From: Nitrococcus sp.
GTDB taxonomy: Bacteria > Pseudomonadota > Gammaproteobacteria > Nitrococcales > Nitrococcaceae
Length of the DNA stretch: 38,421 nucleotides
NCBI GenBank assembly: GCA_030452265.1
Contig: JAKDMQ010000006.1
Location: forward strand, 1-38,421
Reading direction: 5' to 3'
Position 1 is the first letter of the stretch. Every line of letters begins with the position of its first letter. Below are positions 21,579 to 30,330 of the stretch, one piece after another. The position numbers were made by a program, and so were the translations under genes. The notes beneath the pieces were generated by a model. That model ran no database searches. It saw only the letters and a list, made by a program, of their open reading frames with translations, and was not told where the DNA came from.

Positions 21579-22457
21579 ATGCTGAATGCCCCGAGCAGGT
21601 GGCGAGCGCAGTTCAAGCAGGTGCTTCTGGTGTTGGTGGCGGTCGGCCTAGGCGTAGTCATCACGGATGCCTGGGCTGCCGATGCGTCCGCCGGTGCCAC
21701 GCTTTTCAAATCGAAATGCGCAGCCTGCCATACGATTGGCGGGGGTGACACGGTAGGTCCGGACCTTGCTGGAGTAACGGAGCGTCGGGACACGCAGTGG
21801 TTGAAGAGCTGGATTGCGGATCCCCCCGGAATGATTGCCTCCGGCGATGCGACCGCGACGTCGCTGAAGAGTAAATACGGCATGACCATGCCCGACCTCG
21901 GGCTCTCCGATGACCAGATCGCCAACGTGATAGCGTACTTGGCGAGCGGCGGCGCTGGCGGAGGGGAGGCCTCAGCGGCGGGTGCCGCGGCGGCGGGCTC
22001 CACGGCAGCAGCGGCGAAGCCGGAGAGCACAGGCTCGGCTGAGCAGGGCGAGCGGCTGTTCACCGGCGAGGCGAGCCTTCGCAACGGTGGTCCGGCTTGC
22101 TCCGCATGCCATGCCGTTGCCGGTGTAGGCGGTGGCAGCATGGGGCCTGATCTGACGACCACATACAGCCGGCTGGGTGATGCGATGATCACGTGGCCGC
22201 AGGCGATGCTGCCGATGAAGCCGATTTTCACCGAAGACCCCCTGACGGATACCGAGAAGGCGGATCTGCTTGCCTTCTTCAAAGAGAAGGCGTCAGGCGA
22301 CGAGCTATCGGCATCCGGGCCGGTGGCGATGCTCCTCGGGCTGTCGATCATTGGAGCCATAGTGCTCGCGGTGATCCTGAGCGTCGTTTGGAAGAAACGG
22401 CTCATTGCGGTCCGTGAGCCCATGGTGTCGGGCACCAATCGCTGGCGTCGAGACTAG
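21579..22457 (+). CDS. Membrane-anchored diheme c-type cytochrome (NarC-like / NXR-associated cytochrome c)
   Basis: N-terminal signal-like helix; two CXXCH motifs (CAACH and CSACH) separated by an Ala/Gly-rich linker; C-terminal TM 'VAMLLGLSIIGAIVLAVILSVVWKKR'. Confidence 0.9.
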   Translation: MLNAPSRWRAQFKQVLLVLVAVGLGVVITDAWAADASAGATLFKSKCAACHTIGGGDTVGPDLAGVTERRDTQWLKSWIADPPGMIASGDATATSLKSKYGMTMPDLGLSDDQIANVIAYLASGGAGGGEASAAGAAAAGSTAAAAKPESTGSAEQGERLFTGEASLRNGGPACSACHAVAGVGGGSMGPDLTTTYSRLGDAMITWPQAMLPMKPIFTEDPLTDTEKADLLAFFKEKASGDELSASGPVAMLLGLSIIGAIVLAVILSVVWKKRLIAVREPMVSGTNRWRRD

Positions 22458-22537: not shown

Positions 22538-25500
22538 ATGGGCTGGATTCAGGATCTAATCAACCCCAAGACTCGCCGGTGGGAGGAGTTTTATCGCAAC
22601 CGCTGGCAGCACGATAACGTCTTCCGCAGCACGCACGGCGTGAATTGCACGGGCGGCTGTTCATGGGCGATCTACGTCAAGGACGGCATCATCACCTGGG
22701 AGATGCAGCAGACCGACTACCCCTTGCTCGGGCGCGGTGAAGGCGGCCATGGTATACCGCCCTACGAGCCGCGCGGCTGTCAGCGCGGCATTTCGGCATC
22801 GTGGTATGTCTATAGCCCGATTCGTGTCAAGTATCCCTACTGCAAGGGCGTGATGCTCGATTTCTGGCGCGAGGCGCGCTCTCGCCACAACAACCCTATC
22901 GAGGCGTGGGGCTCGATGGTCTCCGATGAGAACAAGCGCACGCGCTGGCAGAAGGCCCGCGGCAAGGGCGGGTTTCGGCGCACGACCTGGGATGAGCTGC
23001 TCGAGCTCATCGCCTCCGCTTGTCTCTACACCGTGCAAAAGTATGGGCCCGACCGGGTGATGGGCTTCGCCCCGATTCCGGCGTTTTCGATGGTCTCGTT
23101 TGCGGGCGGCCAGCGCTTCTTGCACCTTCTCGGCGGTTCGACGATCAGCTTCTATGACTGGTACGCGGACCTGCCCACCGCCTTCCCTGAGATCTGGGGC
23201 GATCAGACCGATGTCTGCGAGAGTGCCGATTGGTACAACAGCAAGTTCATCGTCTCGATGGCGGCCAACCTCAATATGACCCGCACGGCGGATGTGCATT
23301 TTATTTCCGAGGCGCGTCATGAGGGCGCGAAGTTTGTGGTGCTCTCGCCGGACTTCAGCCAGGTCAGCAAATACGCCGACTGGTGGATTCCGGTCAAGCG
23401 GGGTCAGGATCTGGCATTTTGGATGGGCGTGGGTCATGTCATTTACACCGAGTTCCATATCAAGCGCCAGGTGCCCTACTTCGTTGACTACCTCCAGCGG
23501 TATACGGACATGCCCTTCCTGGTCAAGCTGGAGAAGGACGGTGACAGCTACCGCTGCGGGCGCTATCTGACGAGCGAGGAGGTCAAGAAGTACAAAAAGC
23601 AGGAGAACGCCGCTTGGAAGATGCTGGTGCTCGACCGTAAGAGCGGCGAGACTCGCTGCCCGAAGGGTCAGATCGGCCACCGCCACCAAAAGCAGCACGG
23701 CCAGTGGAACCTCAAGATGGAGGATGGCCTCGATGACAGCCCCATCGACCCCGTGATGAGCTTCATCGACCAGAGCGATGAAACCCCGCTGGTGCAGTAT
23801 TACGAGTACGCCACGGAGGTCATGTACAAGCGCGGCGTGCCGGCGAAAAAGCTCGAGACCAGCGATGGCCGTAGCGTACTGGTCGCCACGGTCTATGACC
23901 TTAATATGGCGCAGTACGCGGTGGACCGGGGATTGCCCGGCGATTATCCGAAGGACTACGACGACCCCGCGCCTTATACGCCGGCCTGGCAGGAGCAGTA
24001 CAGCGGCGTCGGCCGCCAGACGGTCATCCGCTTCGCCCGTGAGTTCGCCGGCACCGCCGAAAAGACCAAGGGGCGGTGCATGGTCATCTCAGGCGCCAGC
24101 GCCAACCACTGGTACCACAACAACTTCTATTATCGGGCGGACATTAACTGCCTGATCGCCTGCGGCTGCTGCGGACGCAACGGTGGCGGCCATAACCACT
24201 ACGTGGGCCAGGAGAAGCTCGCGCCGGTGGCCTCATGGGCGGCCATAATGAGCGGCGCGGACTGGGGTATCAAACCGCGTCTCACTCAGTCGGCGTGTTG
24301 GCATTACCCGAATAGCGACAGTTGGCGCTACGATGATTTGTTCGAGAAGTACTCGAACCTGCCGCCGCATTCCAAGTTCATGAAGGGCCAGCACTCGATC
24401 GACCTGATCGCAAAGGCCGTGCGCTTGGGCTGGATGTCGTATTACCCGCAGTTCAACCGCAGCCCGATCGAGCTCTGTCGTGAGGCAGAGGAGGCCGGGG
24501 CCAAGAACGACAAGGGTATCGTGGATTATGTGGTGCAGGGTCTGAAGAAGAAGACTCTTCAGTTTGCCATCGACGATGTGGATGCCCCGGAGAACTGGCC
24601 GCGGGTGTGGATCATCTGGCGGGGCAATGCCATGCAGTCGAGCGCGAAGGGGGCGGAGTTCTTCCTGCGCCATTATCTCGGCACGCATGACAACGCGGTC
24701 GCCGAGGAGCGAGCCAAGCCCCACGTCAAGCACGTGAAATGGCGGGAGCCCGCGCCGCGCGGCAAGATGGATTTGGTGCTCGACATCAACTTCCGCATGG
24801 ACACCACGGCGCTGTACTCCGATATCGTGCTGCCGACGGCGTTCTGGTATGAGAAGAATGATATCAATACCACCGACCTGCACTCCTTCATCCACCCGCT
24901 GGGTCAGGCGGTGCCACCGGTCTGGGAGTCCAAGACCGACTGGGATATCTTCAAGCTGTTCGCCAAGGAGGTTAGCAAGCTCGCACCGCAGGCGTTCTCG
25001 GGGCCAGTGAAGGATCTCTGGCATGGGCCGCTGGCACACGACACAGTCGATGGGATGGCCCAGCGAGAGGTGCGCGATTGGATGTATGGGGAGGGCGAGC
25101 CCATTCCCGGCAAGACCATGCCGCATTTAGCCGTGCTCGAGCGGGATTACACGCAGCTCTACGACAAGTACATCTCCCTCGGCCCCGCGATCCGGGAGAA
25201 GGGGATTACCGGTAACGGCTGCAACTTCCCGATCACCAAGCAGTACGATTATATGTGCGAGCAGCCGCTCGGTGCCTCGCCTGATCCGCGGCACAAGCGG
25301 GCGATCGAGTGGGGCGGTAAACGCTATCCCAGCCTCGAGGATCCGATCGATGGCTGCAACGCGATCATGTACCTAGCCCCGGAGACCAACGGTGAGGTCT
25401 GCTATCAAGCCTTCGAGGCCGAGCAGCACCACACGGGTGTCCCGCTGACCGACCTGGCCGAGCCGTACCGAAGCGTGGAGATGAACTTCTACGACATCAC

Positions 25501-26203
25501 CCGGCAGCCGCGGCGTGTGCTGACCAGCCCCTGCTGGAGCGGCAATATCATCGAGGGGCGAGCCTACTCGGCGTGGTGTCTGCAGATTGAGCGGTTGGTT
25601 CCGTTCCGCACGCTTACGGGCCGCCAGCACATCTACCTCGATGCTCCCTGGTATCTCGATTGGGGCGCGCATCTGTGCACCTATCGGCCGAAGCTGGACT
25701 ATCGCAATACCGATGATCTCAGTGTCAGCCCGATCGATGACAAGACGTTGATCCTAAACTACATCACGCCGCACGGTAAGTGGAACATTCACTCCACTTA
25801 CAAGGACAATCACCGTATGTTGACCTTGTCCCGCGGTATGGATCCGGTTTGGATCAATGACAAGGACGCCGAAAGCGTCGGCTTGAAAGACAATGACTGG
25901 GTTGAGGTCTATAATGACAACGGCGTGATTGTGACGCGGACGAATGTGAGCCGACGGGTACAATCGGGTATGTGCCTTTACTACCACGCTGTGGAACGGA
26001 CCATCTACATACCTAAGTCGCAGATCCGCGGCGGCCGGCGTGCGGGTGGTCACAACAGCGTGACGCGTACCCGCATAAACCCGCTGTTTATCGCCGGAGG
26101 GTATGGCCAGTTCACGTATCTGTGGAACTACTGGGGCCCGACCGGAGTATTGACGCGGGATACGCACGTCGCGATTCGCAAGCTCGAGAAGCTTGAATGG
26201 TAG
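22538..26203 (+). CDS. narG/nxrA: Molybdopterin oxidoreductase alpha subunit: respiratory nitrate reductase NarG or cytoplasmic nitrite oxidoreductase NxrA
   Basis: 1221 aa; N-terminal FS0 motif HGVNCTGGC...RGC, 'YDWYADLP' containing the predicted Mo-ligand Asp, '[13 protein letters not shown]'-type NarG region; no N-terminal Tat signal. Confidence 0.95.
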
Positions 26204-26231
26204 GGCAAATGAGAGCTTGAGGTGTAGGAAA

Positions 26232-26256
26232 GCGGCCGCGCGCAGCGCGCGGCCGC
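26232..26256 (+). other. Strong intercistronic stem-loop between narG/nxrA and narH/nxrB
   Basis: GCGGCCGCGCG-CAG-CGCGCGGCCGC, perfect 11-bp arms, 3-nt loop. Confidence 0.8.
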
Positions 26257-26286
26257 GACGATTTACGATCTCCTAGGAGGTAAAAG

Positions 26287-27825
26287 ATGGATATTCGAGC
26301 GCAAGTCTCCATGGTGTTCCATCTGGACAAGTGCATTGGCTGTCACACCTGCAGCATTGCCTGCAAGAACATCTGGACGGACCGCCAAGGCACCGAGTAC
26401 ATGTGGTGGAACAATGTTGAAACCAAGCCTGGTACCGGTTATCCGACGCAATGGGAGGACCAGGAGAAGTACAAGGGTGGTTGGGAGCGTGATTCTCGCG
26501 GGCGGCTGAAGCTGAAGCTGCAGGGCCGTGCGGGCGCTCTGACCAATATTTTCTACAATCCAAGCCTCCCGACCTTGGATGACTACTACGAGCCGTGGAC
26601 TTACGATTACAAGAACCTGTTCGATGCCCCGGAGGGCGACGACCAGCCGACGGCGCGGGCTGTCTCCCTGGTGACAGGCGATTTCATGGACACCCTCGAG
26701 GCCGGCCCGAACTGGGACGACGATCTGGGTGGATCGGAGGTCTACGCGGCTAATGACCCTAACATCCTGAAGAGTTTGAGCGACTCCGAGCAGCAGGCGG
26801 TGAAGTCCCTCGAGCAGACGGTCTTCTTCTATCTACCGAGGATCTGCAATCACTGTCTCAACCCAGGCTGTGTGGCCGCGTGTCCGACCGGGGCCATCTA
26901 CAAGCGTGGCGAGGACGGCATCGTTCTGATCAGCCAGAATCGCTGCCGTGCCTGGCGGATGTGCGTGTCGGGCTGCCCCTACAAGAAGACTTACTTCAAC
27001 TGGTCGACGGGTAAGTCCGAGAAGTGCATCCTGTGCTACCCGCGTCTCGAGAGCGGACAGCCTCCGGCCTGCTTCCATTCCTGCGTCGGGCGCATCCGCT
27101 ACATCGGCATGGTGCTCTACGATGCCGATGGTATCGAGCAGGCGGCGCGCTCACCCGATAGCGGTTTGGTAGATGCGCAGCGGGCGCTCATCATGGATCC
27201 GTTCGATCCTGAAGTTATCGCCGGCGCCAAGCGTAACGGTGTTGGTGACAGCGTGGTTGCGGCGGCGCAGCAGTCACCGGTCTACAAGTTCGTGAAGGTC
27301 TGGGGTCTGGCCTTGCCGTTGCACCCGGAGTTTCGGACCTTGCCCATGCTCTTTTACGTGCCGCCGGTGTTGCCCGTGATTGCGTCGATTCGCGATGGGC
27401 AGTACGAGACGACGGCCGGTATGGAGTCGGCGCCGGCGGATGAGACCGGGCCCGACCTCAATACCGTAGAGAAGGCGCGGCTTCCGATGGCGTACATGGC
27501 GAGCCTATTTACAGCGGGCGATTTGGACGAGATCAAGTTGGTCTACCGCAAGCTGATCGCGGTTCGCATGTACATGCGTCAGGAGCAAGTGGGCGATCAG
27601 AAGGAAGAGGAAGTGCAGGAGGCGATGCGGCTCGCGAAGTTTACCGGGGAGGATTGCTTGCGGGTCTTCGAGCTGACCTCATTGCCCACATTCGAGGAGC
27701 GCTTCGTGGTCCCGCCGATGGAGCGGGAGCGTGCTATGGATGGTGAATTGCCGCCGCTTGATCCATACAGCCGCAAAGCGGCCGGTGGGTTCGGCTTCAG
27801 GGATGCCCCGGCGCGGAGGTTCTGA
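26287..27825 (+). CDS. narH/nxrB: Iron-sulfur beta subunit, NarH or NxrB
   Basis: MDIRAQVSMVFHLDKCIGCHTCSIACKNIWTDRQGTEYMWWNNVETKPGTGYP; four ferredoxin-type Cys clusters including CRAWRMC (Trp-for-Cys, [3Fe-4S] site). Confidence 0.96.
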   Translation: MDIRAQVSMVFHLDKCIGCHTCSIACKNIWTDRQGTEYMWWNNVETKPGTGYPTQWEDQEKYKGGWERDSRGRLKLKLQGRAGALTNIFYNPSLPTLDDYYEPWTYDYKNLFDAPEGDDQPTARAVSLVTGDFMDTLEAGPNWDDDLGGSEVYAANDPNILKSLSDSEQQAVKSLEQTVFFYLPRICNHCLNPGCVAACPTGAIYKRGEDGIVLISQNRCRAWRMCVSGCPYKKTYFNWSTGKSEKCILCYPRLESGQPPACFHSCVGRIRYIGMVLYDADGIEQAARSPDSGLVDAQRALIMDPFDPEVIAGAKRNGVGDSVVAAAQQSPVYKFVKVWGLALPLHPEFRTLPMLFYVPPVLPVIASIRDGQYETTAGMESAPADETGPDLNTVEKARLPMAYMASLFTAGDLDEIKLVYRKLIAVRMYMRQEQVGDQKEEEVQEAMRLAKFTGEDCLRVFELTSLPTFEERFVVPPMERERAMDGELPPLDPYSRKAAGGFGFRDAPARRF

Positions 27826-27826
27826 C

Positions 27827-28624
27827 GTGCCGCGGATGAGCAATCTGGTAATGGTGGTGCCGAAGCGCGTGTTTATGCTCTTCGGCACCATACTGGACTA
27901 CCCGACCCGGGATCTGAGCGCACATATCGCAGAGTGTGCGGAGGTTATCGGCGACCGAGCTCCTGCATCGGTCGCCGATCTCGAATCGTTCCGCGAGGAG
28001 GTCGAAGGCGCCCCTTTGGGTTATCTCGAAGAGGTGCATACGGCCTTTTTCGATCTCAATCCTGTGTGTAGGCCTTATGTGGGCTATCACCTTTTTGGTG
28101 AAACCTACCGCCGTAGTATGTTCATGATCCGGCTCAAAGAGATCTACGCGCAAAACGGGTTCGAGTTCCCTAAAAATGACCTGCCTGACCGATTGTCCGT
28201 TTTTTTAAGCTTTCTAGGGACCAACGACGACAATGTGCTCGGGCGTGAGCTCATCGATGAGGCCTTGGCACCAACCATGGCCAAGATGACGGGCATGGAA
28301 GTTCCGGTAAGCCGTGTAGCGTCGGGTCGTGGCCGAGCGCGGTCAGCCAAAAAGGAGAAGGAAGAGGTCGGACCCGTTCCGGGTGGGGCAGAGGCTGGGG
28401 GCCCCGAGCGCCCAGGAACGGGCGGCGGGTCGGAGGAGTTGCAGGGCCATAGCCACGGAGGCGAGGTGGACGATGGTGTTCTGCTCGATGCTGTTCATGA
28501 ATCGGCGGGTGTAGCGAGCGGCGCCAGTTGTTTGTACGTAAAGCCATTACGGTCCCTCGCGCGGATTATCCCAGCGCTGTGGGAGCCCGGGCGGCAGGCG
28601 GCCGCTGGCCGCGGTGAGCTATAG
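27827..28624 (+). CDS. narJ: Nitrate reductase molybdenum cofactor assembly chaperone NarJ-like, with atypical low-complexity C-terminal tail
   Basis: 'FMLFGTILDYPTRDL', 'GYLEEVHTAFFDLNPVCRPYVGYHLFGETYRRSMFMIRLKEIYAQNGFEFPKNDLPDRLSVFLSFLG'. GTG at 27827 (or ATG 27836) preferred over the upstream ATG at 27731, which overlaps narH. Confidence 0.88.
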   Translation: MPRMSNLVMVVPKRVFMLFGTILDYPTRDLSAHIAECAEVIGDRAPASVADLESFREEVEGAPLGYLEEVHTAFFDLNPVCRPYVGYHLFGETYRRSMFMIRLKEIYAQNGFEFPKNDLPDRLSVFLSFLGTNDDNVLGRELIDEALAPTMAKMTGMEVPVSRVASGRGRARSAKKEKEEVGPVPGGAEAGGPERPGTGGGSEELQGHSHGGEVDDGVLLDAVHESAGVASGASCLYVKPLRSLARIIPALWEPGRQAAAGRGEL

Positions 28625-28635
28625 AGGAGCAAGCC

Positions 28636-29358
28636 ATGTCGGATGTGATATTAGTGGGGATTCCCTACGTCGCGGTAGCGCTCGCCATTTTGGTGGGGGT
28701 TTACCGGTTCAAAACGGATACATTTTCGCATTCTAGCTTTTCGTCGCAGTTGCTGGAGAACCAAAAGCTATTTTGGGGATCTGCGTTGTGGCATTACTCG
28801 ATCGTGCTGATATTGTTGGCACACTTTATCGCGTTTTTGATCCCGCCGTTGTGGGGCGCGATCTATGGTGGCGCGGAGGTGGCGTTCGAGGCGTTTGGAT
28901 TGATACTTTCCCTCGTGGGTTTCCTCGCGCTAGGCTGGCTGATGATGCGTCGTTTTAGCTCGCGGCGGATCTTCGTGGTCACGAGCCGTATGGACTGGGT
29001 GGTAATCAGTCTTTTGTTGTTGCAGATGGCGTTGGGCTTCTTGGTCGCGTTGTCCTACCGTTGGGGCGGTCAGTGGTTTGTTTCCAGCACCGCGCCATGG
29101 CTCTGGTCAATGGCGACCTTGAACCCGCAGCCAGAGTATGTCAGCGCGCTGCCGTTTTTGGTGCAGTTCCATTTCTTGGCGGGATTTGTGCTGATTGCGC
29201 TGTACCCGTTTTCTCGTTTGGTGCATTTGGTGTTTTTCCCCATCCATTATATGTGGCGGCCTTATCAGCGCGTTATTTGGAACCGGGCGCCGCGCCCAGG
29301 CCTTGGGTCGACCCGGTCGGTGCCTGAGGACATCAGGCTGCGTAGGTTGAGTTCCTAA
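28636..29358 (+). CDS. narI: Nitrate reductase gamma subunit (cytochrome b), NarI-like
   Basis: Five hydrophobic segments; paired His ligands 'WHYSIVLILLAHF' and 'QFHFLAGFVLIALYPFSRLVHLVF'. Confidence 0.94.
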   Translation: MSDVILVGIPYVAVALAILVGVYRFKTDTFSHSSFSSQLLENQKLFWGSALWHYSIVLILLAHFIAFLIPPLWGAIYGGAEVAFEAFGLILSLVGFLALGWLMMRRFSSRRIFVVTSRMDWVVISLLLLQMALGFLVALSYRWGGQWFVSSTAPWLWSMATLNPQPEYVSALPFLVQFHFLAGFVLIALYPFSRLVHLVFFPIHYMWRPYQRVIWNRAPRPGLGSTRSVPEDIRLRRLSS

Positions 29359-29403: not shown

Positions 29404-29465
29404 CGCCCGCCGCCCGAGCGTTTAAGCAAATTCACCGGATTTGCTGGTGCTTTGGGTGGCGGGCG
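29404..29465 (+). other. Nested inverted repeats 3' of narI (terminator or structured RNA)
   Basis: Outer arms CGCCCGCCGCCC (29404-29415) / GGGTGGCGGGCG (29454-29465) pair with one G-U; inner perfect arms AGCAAAT (29425-29431) / ATTTGCT (29439-29445). Confidence 0.65.
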
Positions 29466-29742
29466 TTTCCGTTGCACGGGCGAAACAGGTCCGAGTCGCC
29501 CGGGTGTCGCATTTTCCCCATCGCGCAACGAACTCAATCAGGAATCGTTTCATGAAAAGAGCAGACGGTGGCGACTGCGTGCGCAGGGGCAAATGCAGTT
29601 GCTGTATGGTTACAGTGCGATTTGGCCGTCCGGACCCGTTAATCGGGTGATTCACGGGGCGGCCTGTGGAGCAGGTGGGTTGCTTCTGGATTTGCGGAGC
29701 AACTCTTCGTCATAGACGGTGTTATTCTCGAGGAGGTGAAAG

Positions 29743-30330
29743 GTGGCCTATATTGCACTGTCAACCCGGTGTGTTTGGATATCGCCTGAAGAAGGCCCGC
29801 GAATGGTTGAGATTGCGTGTGTGGAGATGCGCGATGGGGTGGCGACGGGAGAGAGCTTGCATCGCTACGTAAATCCCGGGGTGGGCGTCAGTGATGAGAT
29901 TCTGGGGGATGTGGGAATAAGCTCCGCTGAGCTCGCTGACAAGCCTCCATTCGCGGAATTGGGCCCATACGTGTGTGACTTTCTGCGCGGGCGGGCGGTG
30001 ATTGCCTATGATTTAGATCAGGTGTCGGTGCTGGAAAGAGAGTTCACGGCGCTGGTTGCGCGTTTGTTGCCGCCTTGGAAGAGCGGGAACTGGGATCTAG
30101 ACGCACAATGTAGCCTGCAGTCTCTGTCCATGTTGGCGAGATTGATCGAGGTGCCGGGTGAGGAGCTCGGGGAGATATGTGCGCATTATAATATTGAGCC
30201 ACCTCGGTCACCGGGGGCGCTGGATGAGGCAATGTGCGTTGGAGCCGTATATCCGGTTATGGAACCGGATATTCTGGCGTGGGAGCGGGAGTACGGTGAG
30301 GGGCTCATCACGACGAGTCTGGATGAGTAA
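29743..30330 (+). CDS. DnaQ-like (DEDD 3'-5' exonuclease fold) protein with apparently degenerate catalytic residues
   Basis: GTG start with upstream GAGGAGGTG RBS. 'GPRMVEIACVEMRDGVATGESLHRYVNP' and 'DKPPFAELGPYVCDFLRGRAVIAYDLDQVSVLEREFTAL' align by eye with DNA pol III epsilon; ExoI/II/III residues not conserved. Confidence 0.8.
   Translation: MAYIALSTRCVWISPEEGPRMVEIACVEMRDGVATGESLHRYVNPGVGVSDEILGDVGISSAELADKPPFAELGPYVCDFLRGRAVIAYDLDQVSVLEREFTALVARLLPPWKSGNWDLDAQCSLQSLSMLARLIEVPGEELGEICAHYNIEPPRSPGALDEAMCVGAVYPVMEPDILAWEREYGEGLITTSLDE

Follow-up and report, generated by a model that had tools for sequence, protein, structure and literature searches.

Two predicted pseudo-exonucleases of the DnaQ fold in the nitrite-oxidising genus Nitrococcus

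Introduction

The 3'-5' exonucleases of the DEDDh type are recognised by four acids and a His, and their two-metal catalysis depends on the ExoI acids and the general-base His. Epsilon of the E. coli replicase is held in place mostly by contacts that its clamp motif and C-terminal tail make (PMC4703070). Metazoan Maelstrom (MAEL domain), which lacks the DEDD residues, became an ssRNA-binding module and keeps a non-catalytic role (PMC4408791). Among bacteria, pExoDinG carries a pseudo-exonuclease domain without an active site that is fused to a helicase (PMC11981726), while PolA/PolB2 carry inactivated DnaQ domains fused to a polymerase (PMC12926913). In the literature searched, we found no description of a standalone bacterial dnaQ pseudoenzyme, which is not proof of absence.

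Here, we describe gene A, found in a window of 38,421 nucleotides that is a contig from a 3.68-Mb genome of the marine bacterium Nitrococcus, and its paralogue B from the same genome. In contrast to the fused domains of pExoDinG and PolA/PolB2, A and B are standalone dnaQ paralogues. DnaQ (TIGR01406, PRK05711) is the best match to A in both sequence and structure, and the two are alike in fold, element order and first-half residues, whereas A lacks the active site, the clamp motif and the alpha-binding tail of DnaQ and has an extra insert. Like Maelstrom, A has a DnaQ/DEDD fold without the DEDD residues; Maelstrom differs in being eukaryotic, in having a zinc ECHC site and in its separate origin, and RNA binding has been shown for Maelstrom but not for A.

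Gene A and its neighbours

Gene A follows a nar/nxr cluster and is convergent with acs, and the features of its surroundings in the window are listed below.

22538..28624, + strand: NarG/NarH/NarJ-like genes (nxrA, nxrB, nxrJ), upstream context
28636..29358, + strand: NarI/NxrI-like gamma subunit (nxrI), upstream neighbour of gene A
29731..29736, + strand: Shine-Dalgarno AGGAGG of gene A, 6 nt before the GTG start
29743..30330, + strand: gene A, predicted catalytically dead DnaQ paralogue (pseudo-exonuclease), 195 aa
30560..32566, - strand: acs, acetyl-CoA synthetase, convergent downstream neighbour of gene A

An initial sequence-only reading had described an intact 195-codon frame with a good ribosome-binding site. 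The exact ORF (GTG start, 195 codons and a stop) and the AGGAGG are both confirmed, and the other four Nitrococcus genomes keep the N-terminus MAYIALS and a GGAGG-type site, with a weaker match in G003. A promoter scan found none, and around gene A no Rfam family exceeded its gathering score. The identified neighbours of A (nar/nxr, acs and others) include no defence gene, and the PADLOC matches of A to the DEDDh and PDC-S48 models are weak and arise through the common fold.

Further observations concern the surrounding genes. In three of the five genomes (L074:13780-14823, L076:13162-14178, L077:4847-5866), gene A and acs are separated by an ORF of ~340 aa that by eye resembles an alpha/beta-hydrolase; this ORF is missing from the window's genome and from G002. 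Upstream, NarG/NxrA (22538-23800) has Thermus NarG as its closest relative among plasmid records, at about 62% identity; the gene before it, at 21579-22457, encodes a cytochrome c and has two matched stretches.

Fold and family of A

The protein encoded by gene A belongs to the RNase_T/DnaQ exonuclease superfamily, matching Pfam PF00929 (RNase_T) at 30.4 bits against a gathering score of 24, while the orthologue in G001 reaches 46 bits. The best NCBIfam model is proteobacterial dnaQ (E 3.7e-16). Against the TIGR01406 dnaQ equivalog, A scores 59.5 bits, far under the cut-off of 222.7; the genome's own true DnaQ reaches 296.6 bits. With an AlphaFold model of high mean pLDDT (92.3; pTM 0.87), A is confidently predicted to have a DnaQ fold, as the sequence-only reading had proposed. 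The top Foldseek match in the PDB is E. coli Pol III epsilon (2ido, TM 0.81 by target), and a PDB sequence search agrees in placing epsilon as the nearest solved relative of both A and B. That A resembles DnaQ by chance is ruled out by its HMM scores, by the AlphaFold model and by the Foldseek hit on epsilon.

The PRK09145-type exonucleases (NF006601) are, like A, standalone proteins of about 200 aa, but they are not its nearest family. A dead PRK09145-type exonuclease linked to acs was considered and rejected, since the orthologue in G001 reaches 31 bits for this type versus 87 for DnaQ.

A second paralogue and its Cys-rich neighbour

In all five Nitrococcus genomes, A, B and DnaQ are each single-copy. 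In the window's genome, the intact DnaQ is encoded on C58 and retains LDTET, HNAPFD and LHGALLD, while B is found at a locus that is unlinked to nxr.

G000:C235:18159-18749 (L002:1498-2094), - strand: paralogue B, second predicted catalytically dead DnaQ, 193 aa from the conserved start
G000:C235:17243-18073 (L002:582-1415), - strand: Cys-rich DUF6894-domain protein of ~280 aa, directly downstream of B

Paralogue B was missed by a Pfam scan of its own genome and was detected by protein search; its copies in the five genomes are 85-91% identical to that of the window's genome. The AlphaFold model of B has a mean pLDDT of 89.7, with the same Foldseek outcome as A, and the best solved relatives of both proteins are the E. 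coli epsilon structures 2ido, 2gui and 1j53 (TM about 0.8 by target). The DUF6894 protein is next to B in all five genomes and, within the order, occurs in Nitrococcus only. Its many conserved CxxC motifs suggest metal binding; searches of this protein against the PDB and with PADLOC gave no match.

Loss of the active site

The motifs that had been read by hand in A (LSTRC, AYDLDQ and SPGALDE) are correct. In an alignment against 20 DnaQ sequences, the DEDDh columns of A carry D12 to S, E14 to R/K, D103 to Q, a gap at H162 and D167 to E, so that four of the five positions are replaced or deleted and the fifth is a conservative change. The corresponding columns of B carry E, V, R, G and V. Neither protein has the four acids and His of a DEDDh 3'-5' exonuclease: the active site is lost in all 10 A and B sequences (five species each) and intact in 20/20 DnaQ sequences, and the five A orthologues share the same losses.

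29761..29769, + strand: codons S7-T8-R9 at the old ExoI acids (D12/E14 in E. coli epsilon)
30019..30021, + strand: codon Q93 at the old ExoII D103 column
30226..30228, + strand: codon E162 at the old ExoIII D167 column, invariant in five A orthologues

The earlier view that the catalytic positions are replaced holds for both ExoI acids, for D103 of ExoII and for the His, whose column is deleted in A. To say that all acids are lost would be slightly too strong, since the change of D167 to E is conservative and D92 adjoins the deleted ExoII position, where the placement of the gap is uncertain. As D92, D161 and E162 are invariant across the A orthologues, with E162 standing at the D167 column, they could in principle form a rebuilt active site. 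We consider such a nuclease extremely unlikely, because A has neither of the ExoI acids nor the catalytic His, and B does not conserve residues at the corresponding positions. With the ExoI acids and the general base lost, two-metal catalysis of the DnaQ type is not expected in A.

T15, G17, H98 and F102, which surround the 3' nucleotide site in DnaQ, are replaced or deleted in A. R20, E23, H40, Y42, D66 and K67 are among the DnaQ-family residues that are common to A, B and DnaQ.

Selection and ancestry

Pairwise dN/dS values (NG86) among the five Nitrococcus genomes span 0.07-0.21 in A, 0.06-0.22 in B and 0.13-0.19 in DnaQ. These genomes form only two clades, which keeps the number of independent lineages small, and several of them are drafts or MAGs. 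As dS of A is near saturation between clades, the safer figures are those of within-clade pairs with unsaturated dS, for which omega is 0.095-0.21. These ratios, which resemble those of true DnaQ, exclude decay of A, in agreement with the initial judgement that it is not an obvious pseudogene. A local pseudogene would account for the lost active site and the very long branch described below, but the open frame, start and ribosome-binding site are kept in five species with an omega of about 0.1, and we reject this explanation as having a negligible chance of being right. Judged from their sequences, A and B are pseudo-exonucleases, having lost the active site in every orthologue while remaining under purifying selection. 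The proposal of a repurposed, catalytically dead exonuclease fold is thereby supported.

The phylogeny resolves a clade of A and B with high support (100/99), within which A (100/97) and B (100/99) are each recovered. The branch that leads to this clade is very long, at 7.9 changes per column, and arises within gammaproteobacterial DnaQ, at a point that the tree does not fix exactly and where long-branch effects are possible. Independently of the tree, A and B have in common an insert of ~9 residues, one residue deleted in ExoII and an ExoIII that lacks its Leu-His. The simplest history consistent with these sequences would be a duplication of dnaQ, followed by loss of the active site and a second duplication giving A and B; an intact dnaQ is found elsewhere in the genomes that carry A.

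The two halves of A differ in how far they have moved from DnaQ. Residues 18-85 are 41-45% identical to DnaQ and residues 86-173 only 19-24%, yet the latter are 78% identical among the A orthologues, which suggests that the half holding the old active site is under new constraint. Beyond the exonuclease domain, A ends after ~20 residues, and by alignment both A and B are without the clamp-binding motif (GGQTALAL in Nitrococcus DnaQ) and the C-terminal alpha-binding helix. This bears on whether A could change proofreading by joining the Pol III core, either as a decoy of epsilon or as an alternative to it. Pol III epsilon is indeed the nearest family, and the best-kept part of A is residues 18-85, but a protein lacking both the clamp-binding motif and the alpha-binding tail is very unlikely to play this role.

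Distribution

Relatives of A and B above threshold are found in 5 of the 54 genomes of the order, every one of them Nitrococcus, and in none of the remaining 49. When the search is extended to samples of the class and the phylum, no relative outside the genus passes the threshold: the best match outside it among 369 class genomes scores 105 bits versus 322 for A, and among 399 phylum genomes the window's own genome alone passes 1e-30. The strongest of the listed class matches to A have DnaQ-like frame lengths, and those included in the tree group with DnaQ rather than with A and B. As far as sampled, the A/B family thus appears confined to the genus Nitrococcus. A phage or plasmid origin of A was also considered and rejected, the best phage and plasmid matches being ordinary dnaQ where annotated.

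The link to nxr

Gene A comes after nxrI in all five Nitrococcus genomes, with gaps of 330-542 bp, and each gap contains a hairpin.

29404..29465, + strand: GC-rich hairpin after nxrI, present in 5/5 nxrI-A gaps

A trimmed form of the hairpin has folding z-scores of -6.5, -5.6 and -8.1 in three genomes; in the remaining two, longer segments gave -7.1 and -8.1. An outer stem of 11 bp is paired in every sequence (5/5), and 97.8% of the cells of the alignment are paired with no two-sided changes, such that the support comes from conservation and folding energy rather than compensation. The hairpin is probably the 3' end of the nxr transcript or a terminator, although its T tract is short and weak.

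The position of A raises the question of whether it is an accessory or assembly factor of nitrite oxidoreductase, acting with NxrGHJI. It adjoins nxrI in all five genomes of a genus of nitrite oxidisers, and in the samples of the order, class and phylum it is restricted to this genus. On the other hand, the conserved hairpin lies between nxrI and A, and sister B is unlinked to nxr. Moreover, wherever contigs reach, Nitrococcus genomes keep one gene order from ppiD, der and the cytochrome c gene through nxrGHJI as far as acs, and the neighbourhoods of B and DnaQ are also largely common across Nitrococcus genomes. Because of this genus-wide collinearity, adjacency is expected without any shared function and is weak evidence for one. 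We therefore regard a role for A as an NXR factor as quite unlikely; a link to nxr is not supported beyond adjacency, and this applies also to the specific tie to the nar/nxr complex that was initially suggested.

Discussion

The reading that we favour, with modest confidence, is that A and B are a genus-specific pair of pseudo-exonucleases derived from dnaQ that would act by binding, with a protein as the more probable partner. The metal-binding active site, the clamp-binding motif and the tail that binds Pol III alpha would have disappeared from a dnaQ copy of gammaproteobacterial type, which would have gained the insert of ~9 residues along with its own conserved signature. A duplication of this dead copy would then have produced A, next to nxr, and B, at another locus; purifying selection would maintain the two, with proofreading left to the true dnaQ. 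Without catalysis, A would work as a soluble binding module. We prefer a protein to nucleic acid as the partner in view of the strong acidity of A (pI 4.3-4.6, net charge -8 to -10 per 100 aa), its loss of residues around the 3' nucleotide site, and the position of its conserved new features in the half that holds the active site in DnaQ. Several points temper this preference. Acidity does not prevent a protein from binding nucleic acids and is a general tendency of marine proteins, and in B it is only moderate (pI about 5). In addition, the acids left near the old site of A (D92, D161 and E162) count against this reading.

The main alternative is that the dead groove of A still binds ssRNA, DNA or nucleotides without cutting them, as a regulator or sensor. 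The precedent of Maelstrom is in its favour, as are the intact predicted folds of A and B and the six family residues from R20 to K67 that both retain. The acidity of A and the changes around its 3' nucleotide site argue in the opposite direction, and we judge this alternative unlikely, if still a serious candidate; the nucleic-acid binding raised in the sequence-only reading is thus possible without being favoured. It is also improbable, but conceivable, that A and B (perhaps pairing) form a genus-specific regulatory module with the DUF6894 protein, which would sense redox state or metal and tune energy metabolism or replication.

For annotation, one consequence is that automatic pipelines may call the A and B genes DNA polymerase III epsilon. 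As standalone proteins, A and B can be expressed and assayed, which makes the function of a bacterial pseudo-exonuclease testable. In this single genus of nitrite oxidisers, a universal replication protein appears to have been copied, stripped of its catalysis and its polymerase contacts, and kept twice by selection.
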